DNA of 33,779 bases from the NCBI GenBank assembly GCA_036376135.1, contig DASVAW010000002.1:1-33779 (forward strand), written 5' to 3'. This DNA is from Candidatus Polarisedimenticolaceae bacterium (lineage in GTDB: Bacteria; Acidobacteriota; Polarisedimenticolia; Polarisedimenticolales; DASRJG01). Of this stretch, positions 20,291 through 27,651 are shown in pieces. How positions within the stretch are numbered: the stretch's first letter is position 1; each line of letters starts with the position of its first letter. The translations under genes and the position numbers were made by a program. The notes under the pieces were generated by a model that was not told where the DNA came from, searched no databases, and saw only the letters and a program-made list of their open reading frames with translations.

Positions 20291-23200
20291 ACGGGTCGTC
20301 GACGCCTCGATCCGCAACAAGGCGCTCGTCTTCGCGATCACGGCGCTCGCCGCGCTCTGGAGCCTCGCGTCCCTCTCGCGGATGCCGCTCGACGCGATCC
20401 CCGACCTGACCGACACGCAGGTCATCGTCTACTCGAGGTGGGATCGGAGCCCGGACCTCGTCGAGGACCAGGTCACCTACCCGATCGTCTCCGCGATGCT
20501 CGGAGCGCCGGGGGTCCGAGCGGTGCGCGGCTTCTCCGATTTCGGCTATTCGTTCGTCTACGTCCTCTTCGACGACGACGTGGACGTCTACTGGGCGCGC
20601 TCGCGCACCCTCGAATACCTCTCGGCGGTCCTCCCGACCCTCCCGGAGGGGGTGCAGACGCAGCTCGGCCCCGACGCGACCGCGCTCGGGTGGGTCTACC
20701 AATACGTCCTCGTCGACACGACGGGCTCGCGCGGGCTCGACGAGCTGCGTTCGCTGCAGGACTGGTACCTGCGTTACCACCTCAAGGCGGTTCCCGGGGT
20801 CGCCGAGGTCGCCCCCCTCGGCGGCTTCCGCCGGCAGTACCAGGTCCAAGTGGACCCGAATCGGCTGCGCGCCTACGGCATTCCCATCGCCGACGTGGTC
20901 GACGCGGTGCGCGGCGCGAACGTCGAGGTGGGGGGCCGCCTCGTCGAGTTCGGCGGCGCGGAGTACATGGTGCGGGGCCGCGGCTACGCGCGCTCGATCC
21001 AGGACTTCGAGGAGGTCGTCGTCGCGGCGGGGGACACCGGCTCGCCGATCCGCGTTCGCGACCTCGGCGTCGTCGTCGAGGGACCGGAGCTCCGGCGCGG
21101 GGTCGCCGACCTCGACGGCACCGGGGACACCGTCTCCGGGATCGTGATCGTGCGCCAGGGTCGGAACGCGCTCGAGGTCATTGGCCGCGTGAAGGAGAAG
21201 CTCCGCGAGATCGAGGCCGGACTCCCCGAGGGGGTGCGGGTCGTCCCTGTGTACGACCGCTCGGAGCTGATCCGGCGCGCGATCTCGACCCTGACGACCG
21301 CGATCCTCGAGGTCGTACTCACGATCTCGATCGTGATCCTGCTGTTCCTGTGGCACCTGCCGAGCTCGATCATCCCGATCGTCACGATCCCCCTCGCGGT
21401 GCTCCTGGCGTTCCTCCCCTTCGGCTGGATGGGGCTCACCGCGAACATCATGTCCCTCGGCGGGATCGCGATCGCCATCGGCGCCCTCGACGACGCCGCG
21501 ATCGTCGTCGTGGAGCAGACCCACAAGAAACTCGAGGAGTGGCAGCGCGCGGGGAGCGTCGGGGACTACCGGGAGGTCGTCCGGCGGGCGATCGGACAGG
21601 TGGCGGGGCCGAGCTTCTTCTCCCTGCTCGTGATCGGCGTGTCGTTCCTCCCCGTTCTCGCCCTCGAGGCGCAGGAGGGACGCCTCTTCAAGCCGCTCGC
21701 CTACACGAAGATCCTGGCGATGACGATCGCGGCGGTCCTCGCGATCACCCTCGACCCGGCGCTGCGGATGTTGTTCACCCGGCGCGAGCGGTACGCCTTC
21801 CGTCCCGCGTGGCTCGCATCGGCGGCGAACGCGGCCTTCGTGGGAACGATCCGCCAGGAGGAGCGTCACCCCGTGAGCCGGTTCCTCATGCGCGCCTACG
21901 CCCCCGCGGCCCGGTGGTCGCTCGATCACAAGGGAGCGGTCTTCGCGGTCGCGATCGTCCTGCTCCTCGCGACGGTCCCGCTCTTCCTCGGCCTGGGAAG
22001 CGAGTTCATGCCCCCGCTCGAGGAGGGGGCGTTGTTCTACATGCCCACGACCATGCCCGGCATCTCCGCAACCGAGGCGCAGCGCCTGCTCCAGGTCACC
22101 GACCGGGTGATGATGGGCTTTCCCGAGGTCGCCCGCGTTCTCGGGAAGGCCGGCCGGGCGGAGACGGCGACCGATCCCGCGCCGCTGTCCATGTTCGAGA
22201 CGGTCCTGGTCTTGAAACCCGAGGAGGAGTGGCGCCGCGTCGACACGTGGTACTCGTCGTGGGCTCCCGAGCTCGTCAAGCCGCTCCTGCGCCGGATCAC
22301 CTCCGACCGCATCCCGCAGGAGAGGCTGGTCGAGGAGCTCAACGACGCCCTTCGCCTTCCGGGGCTCTCCAACGCGTGGACGATGCCGATCAAGGCGCGC
22401 ATCGACATGCTGAGCACCGGGATCCGCACCCCGGTCGGGCTCAAGATCTCCGGGGCCGACCTCGCGGCCATCGAGTCGATCGGGGTGGAGGCGGAGCGCG
22501 TGCTGCGCGACGTCCCGGGAACACGCAGCGTCTTCGCCGAGCGCACCGGGGGAGGGTATTTCCTCGACATCGACTGGAAGCGGGACGCGCTCGCGCGGTA
22601 CGGGCTCACCGTGGAGGAGGCGCAGGAGGTCGTCCAGGCGGCCATCGGCGGAGAGTCGATCACGACGACCGTCGAGGGACGGGCCCGCTACGCCGTGAGC
22701 GTGCGTTACCTGCCGGACTTCCGGTCCGATCCCGACGCCGTCGGGCGCGTTCTCGTTCCCGCGGGGAGCGGCGACCGCCAGGTCGCTCTCGCCCAGCTCG
22801 CGGAGGTGAGCGTCTCGACGGGCCCGTCGATGATCCGCAACGAGGACGGCCTGCTCACCGGCTACGTCTACGTCGACCTCGCGGGTCGCGATCCCGCCGC
22901 GTACGTCGAGGAGGCCGACGCGCTCCTGCGCGCGAAGGTGAAGGTACCGCCGGGGTACGCGATCGGCTGGAGCGGCCAGTACGAGTCGATGGTGCGCGTG
23001 CGCGAGCGCCTCCTGGTCGTCGTGCCGATCACGCTTCTGCTGATCCTGATCCTGCTCCTCATGAACACGCGTTCGCCGACCAAGACGGCGATCGTCATGC
23101 TGGCGGTTCCGTTCTCGGCGGTCGGCGCGATCGCCTGCGTGTGGGCGCTGGGCTACGCGATGAGCCCGGCGGTCTGGGTCGGCCTGATCGCGCTGCTGGG

Positions 23201-23531
23201 CGTGGACGCCGAGACGGGGGTTTTCATGCTTCTCTACCTCGACCTCGCCTGGGAGCAGGCACGATCCGAGGGGCGGATGAACACCCGCGACGACCTCCGC
23301 CGCGCGGTGCTCGAGGGGGCGGTGCAGCGGCTGCGGCCGAAGTTCATGACGGTCACCACGACCTTCGTCGGGCTGCTTCCGATCCTGTGGGCGACGGGAG
23401 CGGGATCGGCCATCATGAAGCGGATCGCCGCGCCGATGGTGGGCGGAATCCTGACCTCGTTCCTGCTCGAGCTGCTCGTTTATCCCGCGGTCTACGAGGT
23501 GTGGCGGGGGAGGTCCCTGCGATCCTCGTGA
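20277..23531 (+). CDS. cusA: CusA-like copper/silver efflux RND transporter
   Basis: A 1084-aa inner-membrane proton-driven pump. It has the RND layout: N-terminal helix (NKALVFAITALAALWSLA), a large periplasmic loop, a helix cluster with the proton-relay aspartate in IGALDDAAIVVVEQTHK (D405, D406), a second loop and a final helix cluster. The three methionines that bind Cu(I)/Ag(I) in E. coli CusA (M573, M623, M672) have clear counterparts: FYMPTT (M589), APLSMFET (M639) and RIDMLSTGI (M711). Zn/Co/Ni pumps of the CzcA type have other residues there, so copper or silver is the likely substrate. Its ATG lies inside the end of cusB; the receptor gene follows after 26 nt. Confidence 0.95.
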   Translation: MTLVERVVDASIRNKALVFAITALAALWSLASLSRMPLDAIPDLTDTQVIVYSRWDRSPDLVEDQVTYPIVSAMLGAPGVRAVRGFSDFGYSFVYVLFDDDVDVYWARSRTLEYLSAVLPTLPEGVQTQLGPDATALGWVYQYVLVDTTGSRGLDELRSLQDWYLRYHLKAVPGVAEVAPLGGFRRQYQVQVDPNRLRAYGIPIADVVDAVRGANVEVGGRLVEFGGAEYMVRGRGYARSIQDFEEVVVAAGDTGSPIRVRDLGVVVEGPELRRGVADLDGTGDTVSGIVIVRQGRNALEVIGRVKEKLREIEAGLPEGVRVVPVYDRSELIRRAISTLTTAILEVVLTISIVILLFLWHLPSSIIPIVTIPLAVLLAFLPFGWMGLTANIMSLGGIAIAIGALDDAAIVVVEQTHKKLEEWQRAGSVGDYREVVRRAIGQVAGPSFFSLLVIGVSFLPVLALEAQEGRLFKPLAYTKILAMTIAAVLAITLDPALRMLFTRRERYAFRPAWLASAANAAFVGTIRQEERHPVSRFLMRAYAPAARWSLDHKGAVFAVAIVLLLATVPLFLGLGSEFMPPLEEGALFYMPTTMPGISATEAQRLLQVTDRVMMGFPEVARVLGKAGRAETATDPAPLSMFETVLVLKPEEEWRRVDTWYSSWAPELVKPLLRRITSDRIPQERLVEELNDALRLPGLSNAWTMPIKARIDMLSTGIRTPVGLKISGADLAAIESIGVEAERVLRDVPGTRSVFAERTGGGYFLDIDWKRDALARYGLTVEEAQEVVQAAIGGESITTTVEGRARYAVSVRYLPDFRSDPDAVGRVLVPAGSGDRQVALAQLAEVSVSTGPSMIRNEDGLLTGYVYVDLAGRDPAAYVEEADALLRAKVKVPPGYAIGWSGQYESMVRVRERLLVVVPITLLLILILLLMNTRSPTKTAIVMLAVPFSAVGAIACVWALGYAMSPAVWVGLIALLGVDAETGVFMLLYLDLAWEQARSEGRMNTRDDLRRAVLEGAVQRLRPKFMTVTTTFVGLLPILWATGAGSAIMKRIAAPMVGGILTSFLLELLVYPAVYEVWRGRSLRSS

Positions 23532-23557
23532 AGGCCGAAGCGCTGTGGGAGGAACCC

Positions 23558-25774
23558 ATGAAGCGCGGGTTCGGTGTCCTTTCCCTGCTGGCCCCCCTTC
23601 CGCTCCTCGCCGCCACGGTGACCGGCACGGTGCTCACCCCCGAAGGGTCGCCGCTTCCGGGCGCCCTCGTCGTCGCGCGGAGCGCCGCGGCACCCGCCGT
23701 GGAGGTCCTGAGCGGCGAGCGCGGCGTGTTCCGGTTCTCCGGGCTTCCCGCCGGGGAGGTGATCCTCGAGGCGTCGGTGCCCGGCTACCTCGCGGCGATC
23801 GAGCGCCGGACGCTGTCCGCCGACGATCGCATCGCGGTGGTCCTGCGGATCCCGACCGCGCCGACGGAGGCGGTCACCGTCCGCGCCGACGCCCCGCGCG
23901 GCGGGATCGAGATCCCCGAGATCCGCGAGAGCGCGGCGCGGGACGTGGGGGAGGCGCTCGCGTCCGTGCCCGGCGTGTGGGCGCTGCGCAAGGGAGGCGT
24001 CGCCAACGAGGTCGTCGTCCGCGGCTTCCAGTCCCGGGACCTCAACGTCCTCATCGACGGAGAGCGGGTCTACGGCGCCTGCCCCAACCACATGGACCCG
24101 CCGGCCTTCCACGTGGACTTCGCCGAGGTCGAGCGGATCGAGGTGGGGAAGGGACCGTTCGACGTCCTCCACCAGGGAAGCCTCGGCGGGACCGTGAACG
24201 TCGTCACGCGTCGCCCCGCCCCCGGTTTTGCCGCGCATGCGAACCTCGCCGTGTCGGGGGACGATTACCGGAATCCATCGCTCGCGGCGTCGTACGGCGG
24301 CGAGCGGCTCGCCGTCCTGGGCGGCTGGTCGTATCGCGCCGGGGACGCGTACCGGACCGGGTCGGGGCGGCGGACCACCGAGATCACGAACTACCGCTCC
24401 GATGCGATCGGGGAGCGCGCGTTCGAAGTGGGGACCGCATGGGCGAAATTCGCCGCCCGCCCCGCCGACGGGCACGACCTGGATCTGTCCTGGACCCGGC
24501 AGCAGGCCGACCGCGTCTACTACCCCTACCTGATGATGGACGCGATCTACGACGACACCGACCGCGTGCGCGCCTCCTGGCGCTCGAAGCGGATGCGCGC
24601 GGAGGCCTACTTCACCCGCGTCGACCACTTCATGACCGACACCTGGAGGACCTCCTCGGCGATCCCCGCCGCCACCCTGGGCTGGTCGATGGGGACGCTC
24701 GCGGAGTCGAGGACCTTCGGCGGGCGCGTCGAGGTGCGCGTGGCGGGCTGGACGCTCGGTGCGGAGGGGTACGACCGGTACTGGAACACCGCCACGCGCA
24801 TGGCGGGAACGGCCTACCGGGTCCAGGCGTCCACCCCCGGGGTGACGACGACCGTCGGCGGCCTCTTCGCGGAGCGCGACTTCGACCTCGGCGACGGGAC
24901 CACCCTCGCGGCGGGGGCGCGCCTCGACCGCGCGCGGACCGCGGCCGACGCCTCGATCGCCCCGACCGCGCTCTGGTACGCGGTTCACGGCACGCGTTCG
25001 ACGCAGGCGACCGACACCCTGCCGTCGGCGACGCTGCGCCTGGTCCACCGCAACGAGGACACGGGATTCGAGTCGGCGATCGGCGTCGGGCACGCCGCCC
25101 GCGTCCCCGAGGCGAACGAGCGTTATTACGGCCTCCGGCGCCCGACCTCGGACTGGGTCGGCAACCCGCTCCTCGAGCCGAGCCGCAACACCGGGGTCGA
25201 CGCCTCCGTCGCCAAGCGCTCCGGGCGCGCGTCGGTGGGACTGAGCGTGTACGCGATCCTCGTGGAGGAGTACGCGACGGTCGTGGAGAAGGGGCGCGCC
25301 CGCACCTACGCCGACGTGGACGCCACGATCCTCGGCGGCGAGATCGACGCGGCGGTGACCCTCGCGACGCGCTGGTTCCTGTCGGGGGAGGTCTCGGCCG
25401 TCCGCGGCCGGCAGGAGGCCGACCCCTCGCGCGGGATCACCTCGCGCGACCTGGCCGAGATGCCCCCGCTGCGCGGGCGGCTGGCGCTTCGCTGGAACGG
25501 CCCGGGCGTGTGGGCGGAAGGAGCGTTCGAGGGATCGCTCCGCCAGGACAAGGTCGACACCGACCTCGGGGAGACGCCGACGCCGTCGTACGGCGTTCTC
25601 GGCGTGCGCGCGGGCGCCGCGTGGCGGATGCTGACGTTCACCGTGGGCGTCGCGAACGTCTTCGACCGCGACTATCTCCAGCACCTGTCCTATCAGCGCG
25701 ACCCGTTCCGATCGGGGGTGCGCCTCCCGGAGCCGGGGAGGACCGTGTACGCGAACCTGGGGATGCGGCTCTGA
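23558..25774 (+). CDS. TonB-dependent copper receptor, OprC/NosA-like
   Basis: A 738-aa outer-membrane receptor; start set by GGGAGGA at 23547-23553. Order: signal peptide (1-19), carboxypeptidase-regulatory-like beta domain (20-100), plug domain (about 105-220: VPGVWALRKGG, VVVRGFQSRDLNVLIDG, VERIEVGKGPFDVLHQGSLG, TVNVVTRR), then a beta-barrel ending YANLGMRL. In the plug is YGACPNHMDPP, a CxxxM pair (C175, M179), and in the barrel VDHFMTD, an HxM pair (H357, M359). These match the C143/M147 and H323/M325 copper site known in Pseudomonas OprC, with nearly identical spacing (182 versus 180 residues). Copper uptake is therefore the best call. It is last in the copper unit and ends 2 nt before the inverted-repeat element. 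Confidence 0.93.
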   Translation: MKRGFGVLSLLAPLPLLAATVTGTVLTPEGSPLPGALVVARSAAAPAVEVLSGERGVFRFSGLPAGEVILEASVPGYLAAIERRTLSADDRIAVVLRIPTAPTEAVTVRADAPRGGIEIPEIRESAARDVGEALASVPGVWALRKGGVANEVVVRGFQSRDLNVLIDGERVYGACPNHMDPPAFHVDFAEVERIEVGKGPFDVLHQGSLGGTVNVVTRRPAPGFAAHANLAVSGDDYRNPSLAASYGGERLAVLGGWSYRAGDAYRTGSGRRTTEITNYRSDAIGERAFEVGTAWAKFAARPADGHDLDLSWTRQQADRVYYPYLMMDAIYDDTDRVRASWRSKRMRAEAYFTRVDHFMTDTWRTSSAIPAATLGWSMGTLAESRTFGGRVEVRVAGWTLGAEGYDRYWNTATRMAGTAYRVQASTPGVTTTVGGLFAERDFDLGDGTTLAAGARLDRARTAADASIAPTALWYAVHGTRSTQATDTLPSATLRLVHRNEDTGFESAIGVGHAARVPEANERYYGLRRPTSDWVGNPLLEPSRNTGVDASVAKRSGRASVGLSVYAILVEEYATVVEKGRARTYADVDATILGGEIDAAVTLATRWFLSGEVSAVRGRQEADPSRGITSRDLAEMPPLRGRLALRWNGPGVWAEGAFEGSLRQDKVDTDLGETPTPSYGVLGVRAGAAWRMLTFTVGVANVFDRDYLQHLSYQRDPFRSGVRLPEPGRTVYANLGMRL

Positions 25775-25776
25775 AA

Positions 25777-25952
25777 ATAGGGACAGTCACCGTATTTCGA
25801 CAAATGGGGACAGCAACCTATTTCGCTAACCGTGGAAATAAAAAGGGGGTCGGGATCCCATAACGTGCACCAGGGTTCCCGGCACCCTTCTTACTTCCAC
25901 GGTTAGCGAAATAGGTTGCTGTCCCCATTCGAAATACGGTGACTGTCCCTAT
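25777..25952. repeat. 176-bp inverted-repeat element (REPIN/MITE-like)
   Basis: The left arm 25777-25841 and right arm 25891-25952 are reverse complements apart from a 3-nt CAA insertion (25801-25803) and one substitution. Pairing continues inward at 16 of 20 positions (25840-25859 with 25873-25892), leaving a 13-nt loop. Each arm holds two tandem versions of a motif, AGGGACAGTCACCGTATTTC and GGGGACAGCAACCTATTTC, so there are four in all. The left arm is 29/65 G+C, far below the flanking genes. There is no ORF of its own. The motif and layout recall the non-coding repeats mobilised by REP-associated Y1 (RAYT) transposases, but no transposase is in the window. It separates two converging genes and could act as a bidirectional terminator. 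Confidence 0.85.
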
Positions 25953-26644
25953 CTTCCGTACACCGGCACCAGCGCCCCCCGCGTGACCTCGTTCTGCGGC
26001 GAGGCGAGGAAGACGATCGTCGCGGCGACGGACGGAAGCGTCGCCCACCTCGAAAAGTCCGCCTTGGGCATCGCCGCGCGGTTCGCCTTCGTGTCCATCG
26101 TCGAAGGGACGACGGCGTTGACCCAGATCCCGCGGGGGGCGACCTCCTCGGACAGGGCGAGGGTCATCGCGACGACCGAGGCCTTGCTCATCGTGTAGGC
26201 GATCTTCCCCGCGCCGCGACGGGGCTCGATCCCCGCCTCGGCGGCGACGTTCACGATGCGCCCCCCCGCCGGCAACCTCCTCACCGCCTCGCGGGAGCAA
26301 AGGAAGGCCGAAAGGGTGTTCATCGCGTGCATCCGCCCGAAGTCGGCGAGGGAGGTCTCCTCGAACGGTGCCATCGCGAACCCCCCGGCGCAGTGGATCG
26401 AGCCCCAAAGCACGGGCAGGGAGGCGTAGTACCCGGCGACCTGCGCCTCGACGTCGAGGGAGACCCCCCCCGTCACCCGGACGCGGTCCCGGGTCTCGAA
26501 CTCGAGCTCGTGGGCGGCGGCCTCCCCCCGGACCGGCAGGTGGCAGACCGCTCCCGCCTCGACGAGGGCCCGCACGACGGCGGCGCCGAGCTCCCCCGAG
26601 GCCCCGGTGACCACGACGTTCCGGTTCTCGTAACGGATGTCCAT
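25949..26644 (-). CDS. SDR-family NAD(P)-dependent oxidoreductase with Ser-less catalytic site
   Basis: A 231-aa classical short-chain dehydrogenase. Cofactor loop TGASGELG (13-20), HCAGG (84-88) where NNAG is usual, catalytic Asn in HAMNTLSAF (N109) and YTMSK (Y150, K154). The position of the usual catalytic serine is alanine (VNVAAEAG, A134-A135), a feature shared with dihydropteridine-reductase-like members and some uncharacterised SDRs. The C-terminal GALVPVYGR is typical, but the stop codon (TAG at 25951-25949) and the last base of the final Arg codon belong to the inverted-repeat element, so the original end may have been replaced. GGAGGAG upstream of ATG 26644 is a good ribosome-binding site. 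The substrate is unknown. Confidence 0.9.
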   Translation of the reverse strand: MDIRYENRNVVVTGASGELGAAVVRALVEAGAVCHLPVRGEAAAHELEFETRDRVRVTGGVSLDVEAQVAGYYASLPVLWGSIHCAGGFAMAPFEETSLADFGRMHAMNTLSAFLCSREAVRRLPAGGRIVNVAAEAGIEPRRGAGKIAYTMSKASVVAMTLALSEEVAPRGIWVNAVVPSTMDTKANRAAMPKADFSRWATLPSVAATIVFLASPQNEVTRGALVPVYGR

Positions 26645-26700
26645 TCCCGCTCTCCTCCCGGAGAGTCTAGACTGTCGGCCGGGCCCCGGAGGGTGTTGCG

Positions 26701-27651
26701 ATGCCCGCCAACCTCACCCCCGACTACCACCGCGCCGAGGAGCATTTCCGCTCGGCGAAGACGAACGAGGAGAAGGTCCTCGCCCTCGAGGAGATGCTGC
26801 GCGTCGTCCCCAAGCACAAGGGGACGGACGGGCTGCAGGCCGACCTCAAGGCGCGCCTGGCCAAGCTCCGAAAACAGCCGATGAGCAAGGCGGCGCGGGC
26901 CTCGTTCAGCCACGTCGTCGAGAAGGAAGGGGCGGGGCAGGTGGCGCTCCTGGGCCCTCCGAACTCCGGGAAGTCGTCGCTCGTCGCGGCGCTCACGCAC
27001 GCGACCCCCGAGATCGCCGAGTACCCGTTCACCACGCGCGAGCCGGTACCGGGGATGATGCCGTTCGAGGACGTGCGCATCCAGCTCGTCGACCTCCCGC
27101 CGCTCAACGACGACCACGTCGAGCCGTGGGTGTGGGACATCGCGCGCCGCGCCGACGCGGTCTGGCTCGTGGTGAACGTCGAGGACGGGCTCGACGGGTT
27201 CCTCCATTCCCGCGAGCGGCTCGACGAGAAGGCGATCCGCACCACGCCCCCCGGCGGGGGAGGCAAGCCCGCGCTCGTCGTCGCGACCGGACTCGACCGC
27301 GGGGACGGACCCGACGACCTCGAGATCCTGCGCGAGCTGATGGATCCCGCGTGGCCGCTTTACGGCGTGTCGACGGTGACGAGGGCGGGGCTCGACGTCC
27401 TCGCGAAACGCACCTTCGAGGCGCTCGACGTGATCCGGGTCTACACGAAGCAGCCGGGGAAACCGGCCGACAAGGCGTCCCCGTTCACGCTGCCGCGGGG
27501 GGCGACCGTCGCCGACCTCGCGACGCGGATCCACAACGACCTCGCGGCGGCGATGCACTTCGCGCGCGTATGGGGACCCTCGGTCTTCGACGGGCAGACG
27601 GTGCACGGCGAACACGTCCTCCTCGAGGGGGACGTGGTCGAGATCCACTGA
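26701..27651 (+). CDS. DRG/Obg-like GTPase with TGS domain and degenerate G4
   Basis: A 316-aa protein; GGAGGG at 26688-26693 supports the start. The N-terminal helical region (1-70, with VPKHKGTDGLQADLKARLAK) is followed by a G domain: P-loop GPPNSGKS (85-92), the switch I threonines YPFTTREP (T111/T112), and G3 reduced to VDLPPL (D131, lacking the final Gly of DxxG). The guanine-specifying NKxD is replaced by ATGLD (195-199). The C-terminal TGS domain (about 240-316) runs from VIRVYTKQPG to LEGDVVEIH. The layout matches DRG proteins, translation-associated GTPases of archaea and eukaryotes with some bacterial relatives. The altered G3 and G4 make GTP specificity uncertain. It diverges from the SDR gene across 56 bp. 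Confidence 0.88.
   Translation: MPANLTPDYHRAEEHFRSAKTNEEKVLALEEMLRVVPKHKGTDGLQADLKARLAKLRKQPMSKAARASFSHVVEKEGAGQVALLGPPNSGKSSLVAALTHATPEIAEYPFTTREPVPGMMPFEDVRIQLVDLPPLNDDHVEPWVWDIARRADAVWLVVNVEDGLDGFLHSRERLDEKAIRTTPPGGGGKPALVVATGLDRGDGPDDLEILRELMDPAWPLYGVSTVTRAGLDVLAKRTFEALDVIRVYTKQPGKPADKASPFTLPRGATVADLATRIHNDLAAAMHFARVWGPSVFDGQTVHGEHVLLEGDVVEIH

Follow-up and report, generated by a model that had tools for sequence, protein, structure and literature searches.

What is a long, strongly folded palindrome doing between two convergent genes of a GC-rich genome, and how did it get there? The question is raised by a locus within a 33,779-nt stretch of DNA from a Candidatus Polarisedimenticolaceae bacterium (the window). 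A sequence-only reading had described the locus as a near-perfect 176-bp inverted repeat of foreign base composition, with two GGGACAG...TATTTCG motifs per arm, and had proposed a REP-type element that depends on a RAYT transposase encoded elsewhere.

A concentric palindrome between convergent genes

The arms of the repeat pair in two blocks, an outer one of 28 nt (25773-25800/25929-25956, 96% complementary) and an inner one of 57 nt (25803-25859/25873-25929, 91% complementary), giving a concentric near-perfect palindrome at 25775-25952 (Table 1). Each arm contains two GGGACAG motifs (25780-25798 and 25807-25824 on the plus strand, 25908-25925 and 25931-25949 on the minus strand) and, further in, a third and diverged layer that the sequence-only reading had not described. 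Folded as single-stranded DNA, the palindrome reaches −86.7 kcal/mol, compared with −21.5 ± 3.5 kcal/mol for shuffled sequences (z = −18.9), and the predicted stem runs through 24 bp, a 3-nt bulge, 34 bp and a less perfect inner stem to a 13-nt loop. Arm pairing, motif positions and fold thus confirm the near-perfect 176-bp inverted repeat with its four motifs, and the bulge accounts for what had been reported as a CAA insertion. The composition is indeed foreign: the palindrome has a GC content of 50.6%, compared with 71.5% for the window, and is the minimum among the 176-nt windows sampled. Every motif also folds alone, as the small hairpin AAATAGG-GACAGCAA-CCTATTT, so that the motif is itself a hairpin, a second point absent from the earlier description. 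Judged by its sequence, the left-arm third layer (AAATAAAAAGGGGGTCGGGATCCC) appears to resemble the AAAAGGGGTCAGGCCCC repeats that belong to a second RAYT of the same genome (see below). A search of Rfam over 24500-27500 returned no known RNA family, only two chance-level miRNA matches far below the cut-offs, and a literature search with GGGGACAG gave nothing relevant among the matches listed.

The upstream open frame ends in a TGA stop (25772-25774) that abuts the palindrome, and the TAG stop of the convergent downstream gene (25951-25949) consists of element sequence, which had also gone unremarked. The protein of this downstream gene ends VYGR*, whereas its element-free orthologue in the nearest relative ends VYGRT*, one residue longer and with a TGA stop. 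At that empty locus of the nearest relative, a search for the gene that lies upstream in the window gave no match, so that the comparison there covers the downstream flank; the proposed comparison with relatives thus yielded genomes without the family and a downstream orthologue without the element.

Table 1. Features of the palindrome and of the genes that converge on it (window coordinates).
Feature	Position	Strand	Basis
Upstream open frame converging on the palindrome, TonB-receptor-like outer-membrane C-terminus (putative)	20438..25774	+	
Outer motif, left arm: AAATAGGGACAGTCACCGTATTTC, type R1, short hairpin	25775..25798	+	motif match, fold
Inner motif, left arm: AAATGGGGACAGCAACCTATTTC, type R2 (the type flanking the C179 transposase gene)	25802..25824	+	motif match
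Third, diverged inner layer, left arm: AAATAAAAAGGGGGTCGGGATCCC	25836..25859	+	sequence, arm pairing
Palindrome centre: 13-nt loop	25860..25872	.	arm pairing, fold
Third, diverged inner layer, right arm: AAGTAAGAAGGGTGCCGGGAACCC on the minus strand	25873..25896	-	arm pairing
Inner motif, right arm: R2 inverted	25908..25929	-	arm pairing, motif match
Outer motif, right arm: R1 inverted	25931..25952	-	motif match
Downstream gene in convergent orientation, putative SDR-type dehydrogenase judged from sequence	25949..26644	-	

A dispersed repeat family and its candidate transposase

Across the 4.4-Mb genome, the pattern GGGACAGN{1,4}CCN{0,2}TNNTT matches 93 times and its reversed control not once; a 184-nt query gives 74 matches. 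At the roughly 40 sites inspected, most copies are inverted pairs, nearly all of them between convergent genes, and three motif types recur: R1 (GGGACAGTCACCGTATTTC), R2 (GGGACAGCAACCTATTTC) and R3 (GGGACAGTCCCTCTTT). Two or three of these types are nested concentrically at many sites, with R2 outside R1, R1 outside R2 (as in the window) or R3 outside R2. At many element centres stands a stem-loop in which the loop is conserved (about TAACGTGCGCTT) and the stem varies without losing its pairing; since the arms mirror each other in any case, this covariation does not independently prove that structure is under selection. In a comparison with 60 relatives, the family reaches high copy in the window's genome only.

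The genome holds two divergent Y1_Tnp genes, on contigs C179 and C30, each in one copy, unlike the near-identical multicopy transposase genes of an IS200/IS605 insertion sequence. The C179 gene (82222-82938) is bordered by inward-facing inverted R2 units at 82060-82076 and 82933-82949; inverted AAATAGGGACAGCAACCTATTTC stands on each side, and the gene's own stop is a TAG within the 3' copy. A cognate Y1/RAYT gene flanked by the family's own unit is therefore present in the same genome, as the sequence-only reading had anticipated. The protein scores 70.7 bits against NCBIfam REP_Tyr_transpos, just under the equivalog cut-off of 80, and matches the E. coli TnpA-REP (PDB 4ER8) with E = 8e-6. Its length (238 aa), HUH motif (NHVH) and YVELNP motif match published subclass 2.1 entries in Table 1 of PMC6006769, the HUH and Tyr residues are invariant in an alignment of eight relatives, and the C-terminal extension beyond the Y1 domain, where subclass 2.1 enzymes have an HTH-like domain, has no Pfam HTH match at E <= 1. 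The agreement in HUH motif, Tyr motif and length makes it likely that the enzyme belongs to RAYT group 1 (TnpA-Y1 subclass 2.1, 'TIRYT'). The second RAYT gene (C30:11766-12104) has its own tag, AAAAGGGGTCAGGCCCCTTTT, with AAAAGGGGTCAGGCCCCTTTTTC on each side and inverted AAAAGGGGTCAGGCCCCTTTTTCTTTC flanks, the 19-mer core of which constitutes a family of its own (27 exact copies, 0 in the control). No RAYT with R1 or R3 at its flanks turned up, so that these two layers could be variants, or remnants left by another enzyme.

Taken in the broad sense, the family shows features of REPs and REPINs: short palindromic units in many dispersed extragenic copies, whose inverted pairs form a long hairpin. 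It differs from the classical GTAG REPs, which carry GTAG, GTGG or similar at the foot of the hairpin: the unit here, AAAT[A/G]GGGACAG...TATTTC, shows no GTRG there with any consistency and has its GGGACAG inside the hairpin. A closer likeness is found in the TIRs and TIRtrons of TIRYT transposases, for which Di Nocera et al. 2013 (PMC3733652) gives the inverted-repeat consensus GGGGWSAS, that is, GGGG[AT][CG]A[CG]. The inner motif conforms to this consensus (GGGGACAG at 25806-25813), as does the C30 family (GGGGTCAG); AGGGACAG, present in the outer motif R1 and in the units next to the C179 gene, matches seven of its eight positions. TIRtrons share with the present system a RAYT-like HUH/Tyr transposase flanked by GGGGWSAS-type inverted repeats, the dispersal of repeats as dimers or clusters in some genomes, and two transposases per genome, each with its own repeat. 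They differ in that the outer motif here is AGGGACAG, several tag families are nested round one centre and private spacers are mirrored, and a concentric arrangement was not found in the text of PMC3733652 that was read. With REPINs (PMC3116915) the elements share two inverted short palindromes round a spacer, compensatory changes, a long hairpin and presumed movement by a RAYT through a single-strand intermediate, but the transposase here is of another subclass and two or three pairs are nested instead of one. Concentric layering is the unusual feature of the element.

The association of tag and transposase extends to other genomes. Close relatives of the C179 transposase are carried by 37 of 297 genomes of the phylum, and most of those inspected have flanking inverted repeats with GGGGAC-type tags, the sequences of which differ. 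With subclass 2.1 (RAYT group 1) of the 2018 survey (PMC6006769) the C179 enzyme shares its 238 aa, NHVH, Y[IV]ELNP, a C-terminal extension and a patchy distribution over many phyla. That survey listed no REP-like sequences near subclass 2.1 genes, whereas here 56 of 76 named relatives, from many phyla, have inward GGGAC[A/G] on both sides (on the same 76 loci, reversed CAGGGG gives 0 and outward GTCCCC 5) and a dispersed family exists in the window's genome. A motif-free test agrees, with GGGACA the commonest 6-mer, present in 44 of the 58 loci that have a shared inverted 12-mer. Copy number of the tag GGGGACACAATAC tracks the transposase: the tag is present in 14 of 37 RAYT-positive and 10 of 260 RAYT-negative genomes (p = 1.5e-8) and reaches four or more copies in 9 and 2 genomes, respectively, although it was picked from flanks in some of the counted genomes, which inflates the presence figure more than the figure for four or more copies. 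Group-1/subclass-2.1 RAYTs are among the largest RAYT groups, yet were listed without REP-like repeats in 2018; with a GGGAC[A/G] tag beside most sampled members, it becomes possible to test directly in vitro what this enzyme group acts on.

A relative of the RAYT on contig C74 of genome G025 is flanked by repeats of another type (TCGGTGCCAGTTACCGAACTC), several copies of which lie beside the gene; the GGGAC tag is therefore not universal. In the 1.9-Mb genome G043, from the same phylum, a cousin motif (GGGACAGACCCTTTTT) has 77 matches against 14 in the control, many of them near contig ends. The junction between a NuoI-like and an L,D-transpeptidase-like gene (named by sequence look; C157:16158-16288) is kept in the nearest relative (contig C4), where GGGACAG-tagged hairpins occupy it whose sequence is peculiar to that relative; one convergent junction thus carries different repeat families in two genera.

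Together, these results indicate that the palindrome is probably a REPIN-like, non-autonomous mobile element with a GGGAC[A/G] tag, the likely enzyme being the C179 RAYT of group 1/subclass 2.1; we infer its mobility from copy number, association with a transposase and absence in relatives. Instead of a single copy conserved in distant relatives with no transposase, there are many copies, relatives lacking the family and a Y1 gene in the same genome. The REP/RAYT interpretation first proposed is supported as regards copies, cognate locus and absence from relatives; its tag is GGGAC[A/G] (GGGGWSAS) and not GTAG.

Stop codons, placement and mirrored arms

At 51 of the 61 element ends assessed, the stop of the converging open reading frame begins no more than 12 nt upstream of GGGACAG. 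The commonest stop positions are −2 (16 ends, TAG) and −6 (16 ends, nearly all TAA), both within the border TAAATAGGG; the frame without a stop in the border is depleted (5 of 51, p = 1e-4), and TAA is the stop of 28% of element-adjoining genes but of 5.7% across a sample of 434 kb (p = 3e-6). It follows from the stop positions, the frame depletion and the TAA excess that the element, which abuts the stops of the genes on both sides, often supplies them. In relatives, the orthologous proteins have the same end point or run on for one to several residues. According to PMC3733652, GTAG and CGTC REPs lie equally close to ORF ends and GTAG REPs donate TAG. The conv-REPs GTAG-1 of P. entomophila and CGTC-1 of S. 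wittichii, which adjoin ORF ends, represent the same phenomenon; stop-abutting placement is a known REP habit, here extended to a different tag and supplemented by frame statistics and orthologue comparison.

Stop-to-stop placement was also considered as proof of sequence targeting, an argument weakened by the landscape of the genome itself. About a third of the element-free convergent pairs in 434 kb of the same genome, surveyed with crude gene calling, have gaps of −4 to +25 bp, several of them sharing an overlapping CTAG, and most convergent junctions in the genome contain no element. With gaps so often close to zero at element-free convergent junctions, the placement may reflect tolerance and require no recognition of a target.

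Placement bears equally on whether the copies are host-made bidirectional terminators, or 3'-end mRNA structures under selection, with a similarity that reflects function and not movement. Nearly all copies do stand stop-to-stop between convergent genes and fold strongly, and pairing of the central stem-loop is kept while its bases change. Even so, we regard this explanation as improbable: the sequence identity goes far beyond the needs of a terminator, element sequence also flanks a transposase gene, the family is absent from relatives that must terminate these genes too, most convergent junctions manage without it, and no U-run directly follows the stem.

Over the private spacer and inner sequence of 27 internal elements, the two arms of one element agree at 85% of positions, compared with 32% between different elements. 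The excess in arm agreement continues beyond the motif (89% vs 70% at −6..−1 and 56% vs 32% at −12..−7; 0 of 2000 permutations) and is gone at −20..−13. Near-identical arms had been taken as a sign of recent arrival or ongoing repair; because an element's own arms match in nearly every copy, even among copies that differ from each other, they are no proof of recent arrival, and ongoing homogenization, or insertion into palindromes, is indicated instead. The mirroring would reflect either the insertion of units into short palindromes or arm-to-arm copying through the hairpin. The gene to the left of C164:58555 simply has its last few codons within the element; an overwriting of its end by mirror copying was considered and rejected, as proteins of relatives have a similar C-terminus. 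At C164:25376-25423, unlike at other copies, mirror symmetry continues for 24 bp past the motif on each side, perhaps as part of a larger inverted element.

A possible course of insertion and layer growth

The DUS/USS uptake signals of naturally competent bacteria are likewise short recurring words, often paired in inverted orientation where genes end, and the GGGACAG motifs resemble them in this respect. That the motifs are uptake or protein-binding signals is nevertheless very unlikely, given fewer than 100 copies, their division into several families (R1, R2, R3, GGGGTCAG), the Y1 transposase that R2 and GGGGTCAG each border, and the mirroring of private spacers. An assembly or library artefact (foldback chimeras) can be dismissed almost entirely, for although several of the copies fall at the ends of contigs, the points at which an assembly breaks off, at least 27 are internal with sequence on both sides, most with intact genes, and similar tagged repeats occur in many independent assemblies.

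For a mobile GGGAC[A/G]-tagged element, the following course can be proposed. On single-stranded DNA, for example the lagging-strand template, the HUH/Tyr enzyme would recognize two inverted tagged hairpins, cut and rejoin the pair and paste it into another site. Convergent junctions would tolerate such insertion thanks to their near-zero gaps and to a TAAATAGGG end that provides a stop in each of two frames. Existing palindromes could then receive additional units, whether from the same family or from others, at the centre or on the outside, to give concentric layers, while hairpin-templated copying between the arms would maintain the mirroring and extend it a few bases into the host flanks. 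Once settled, the hairpin would end both convergent transcripts and may serve, as a secondary effect, as a terminator or mRNA stabilizer. Repeated insertion of tagged hairpins into or around the hairpin tip, combined with copying of arms at the replication fork, is a tentative and rather doubtful account of the layers, in which growth would be self-mirroring and host gene ends rewritten; if true, RAYT-dependent repeats would grow and be maintained in a novel way. The self-mirrored concentric build and the element-supplied stops show how such repeats fit genomes that have almost no spacing between convergent genes.

Two further sites illustrate the range of element forms. At C68:205-469, the sequence enclosed by an R2 pair is unrelated, GC-rich and about 230 bp long, and may be a carrier element or a remnant. 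Near C164:53640, a convergent gene pair with 14 bp between its stops holds one variant hairpin (TAAATGGGGACGGCAACCTATTTC), the smallest form of the element.
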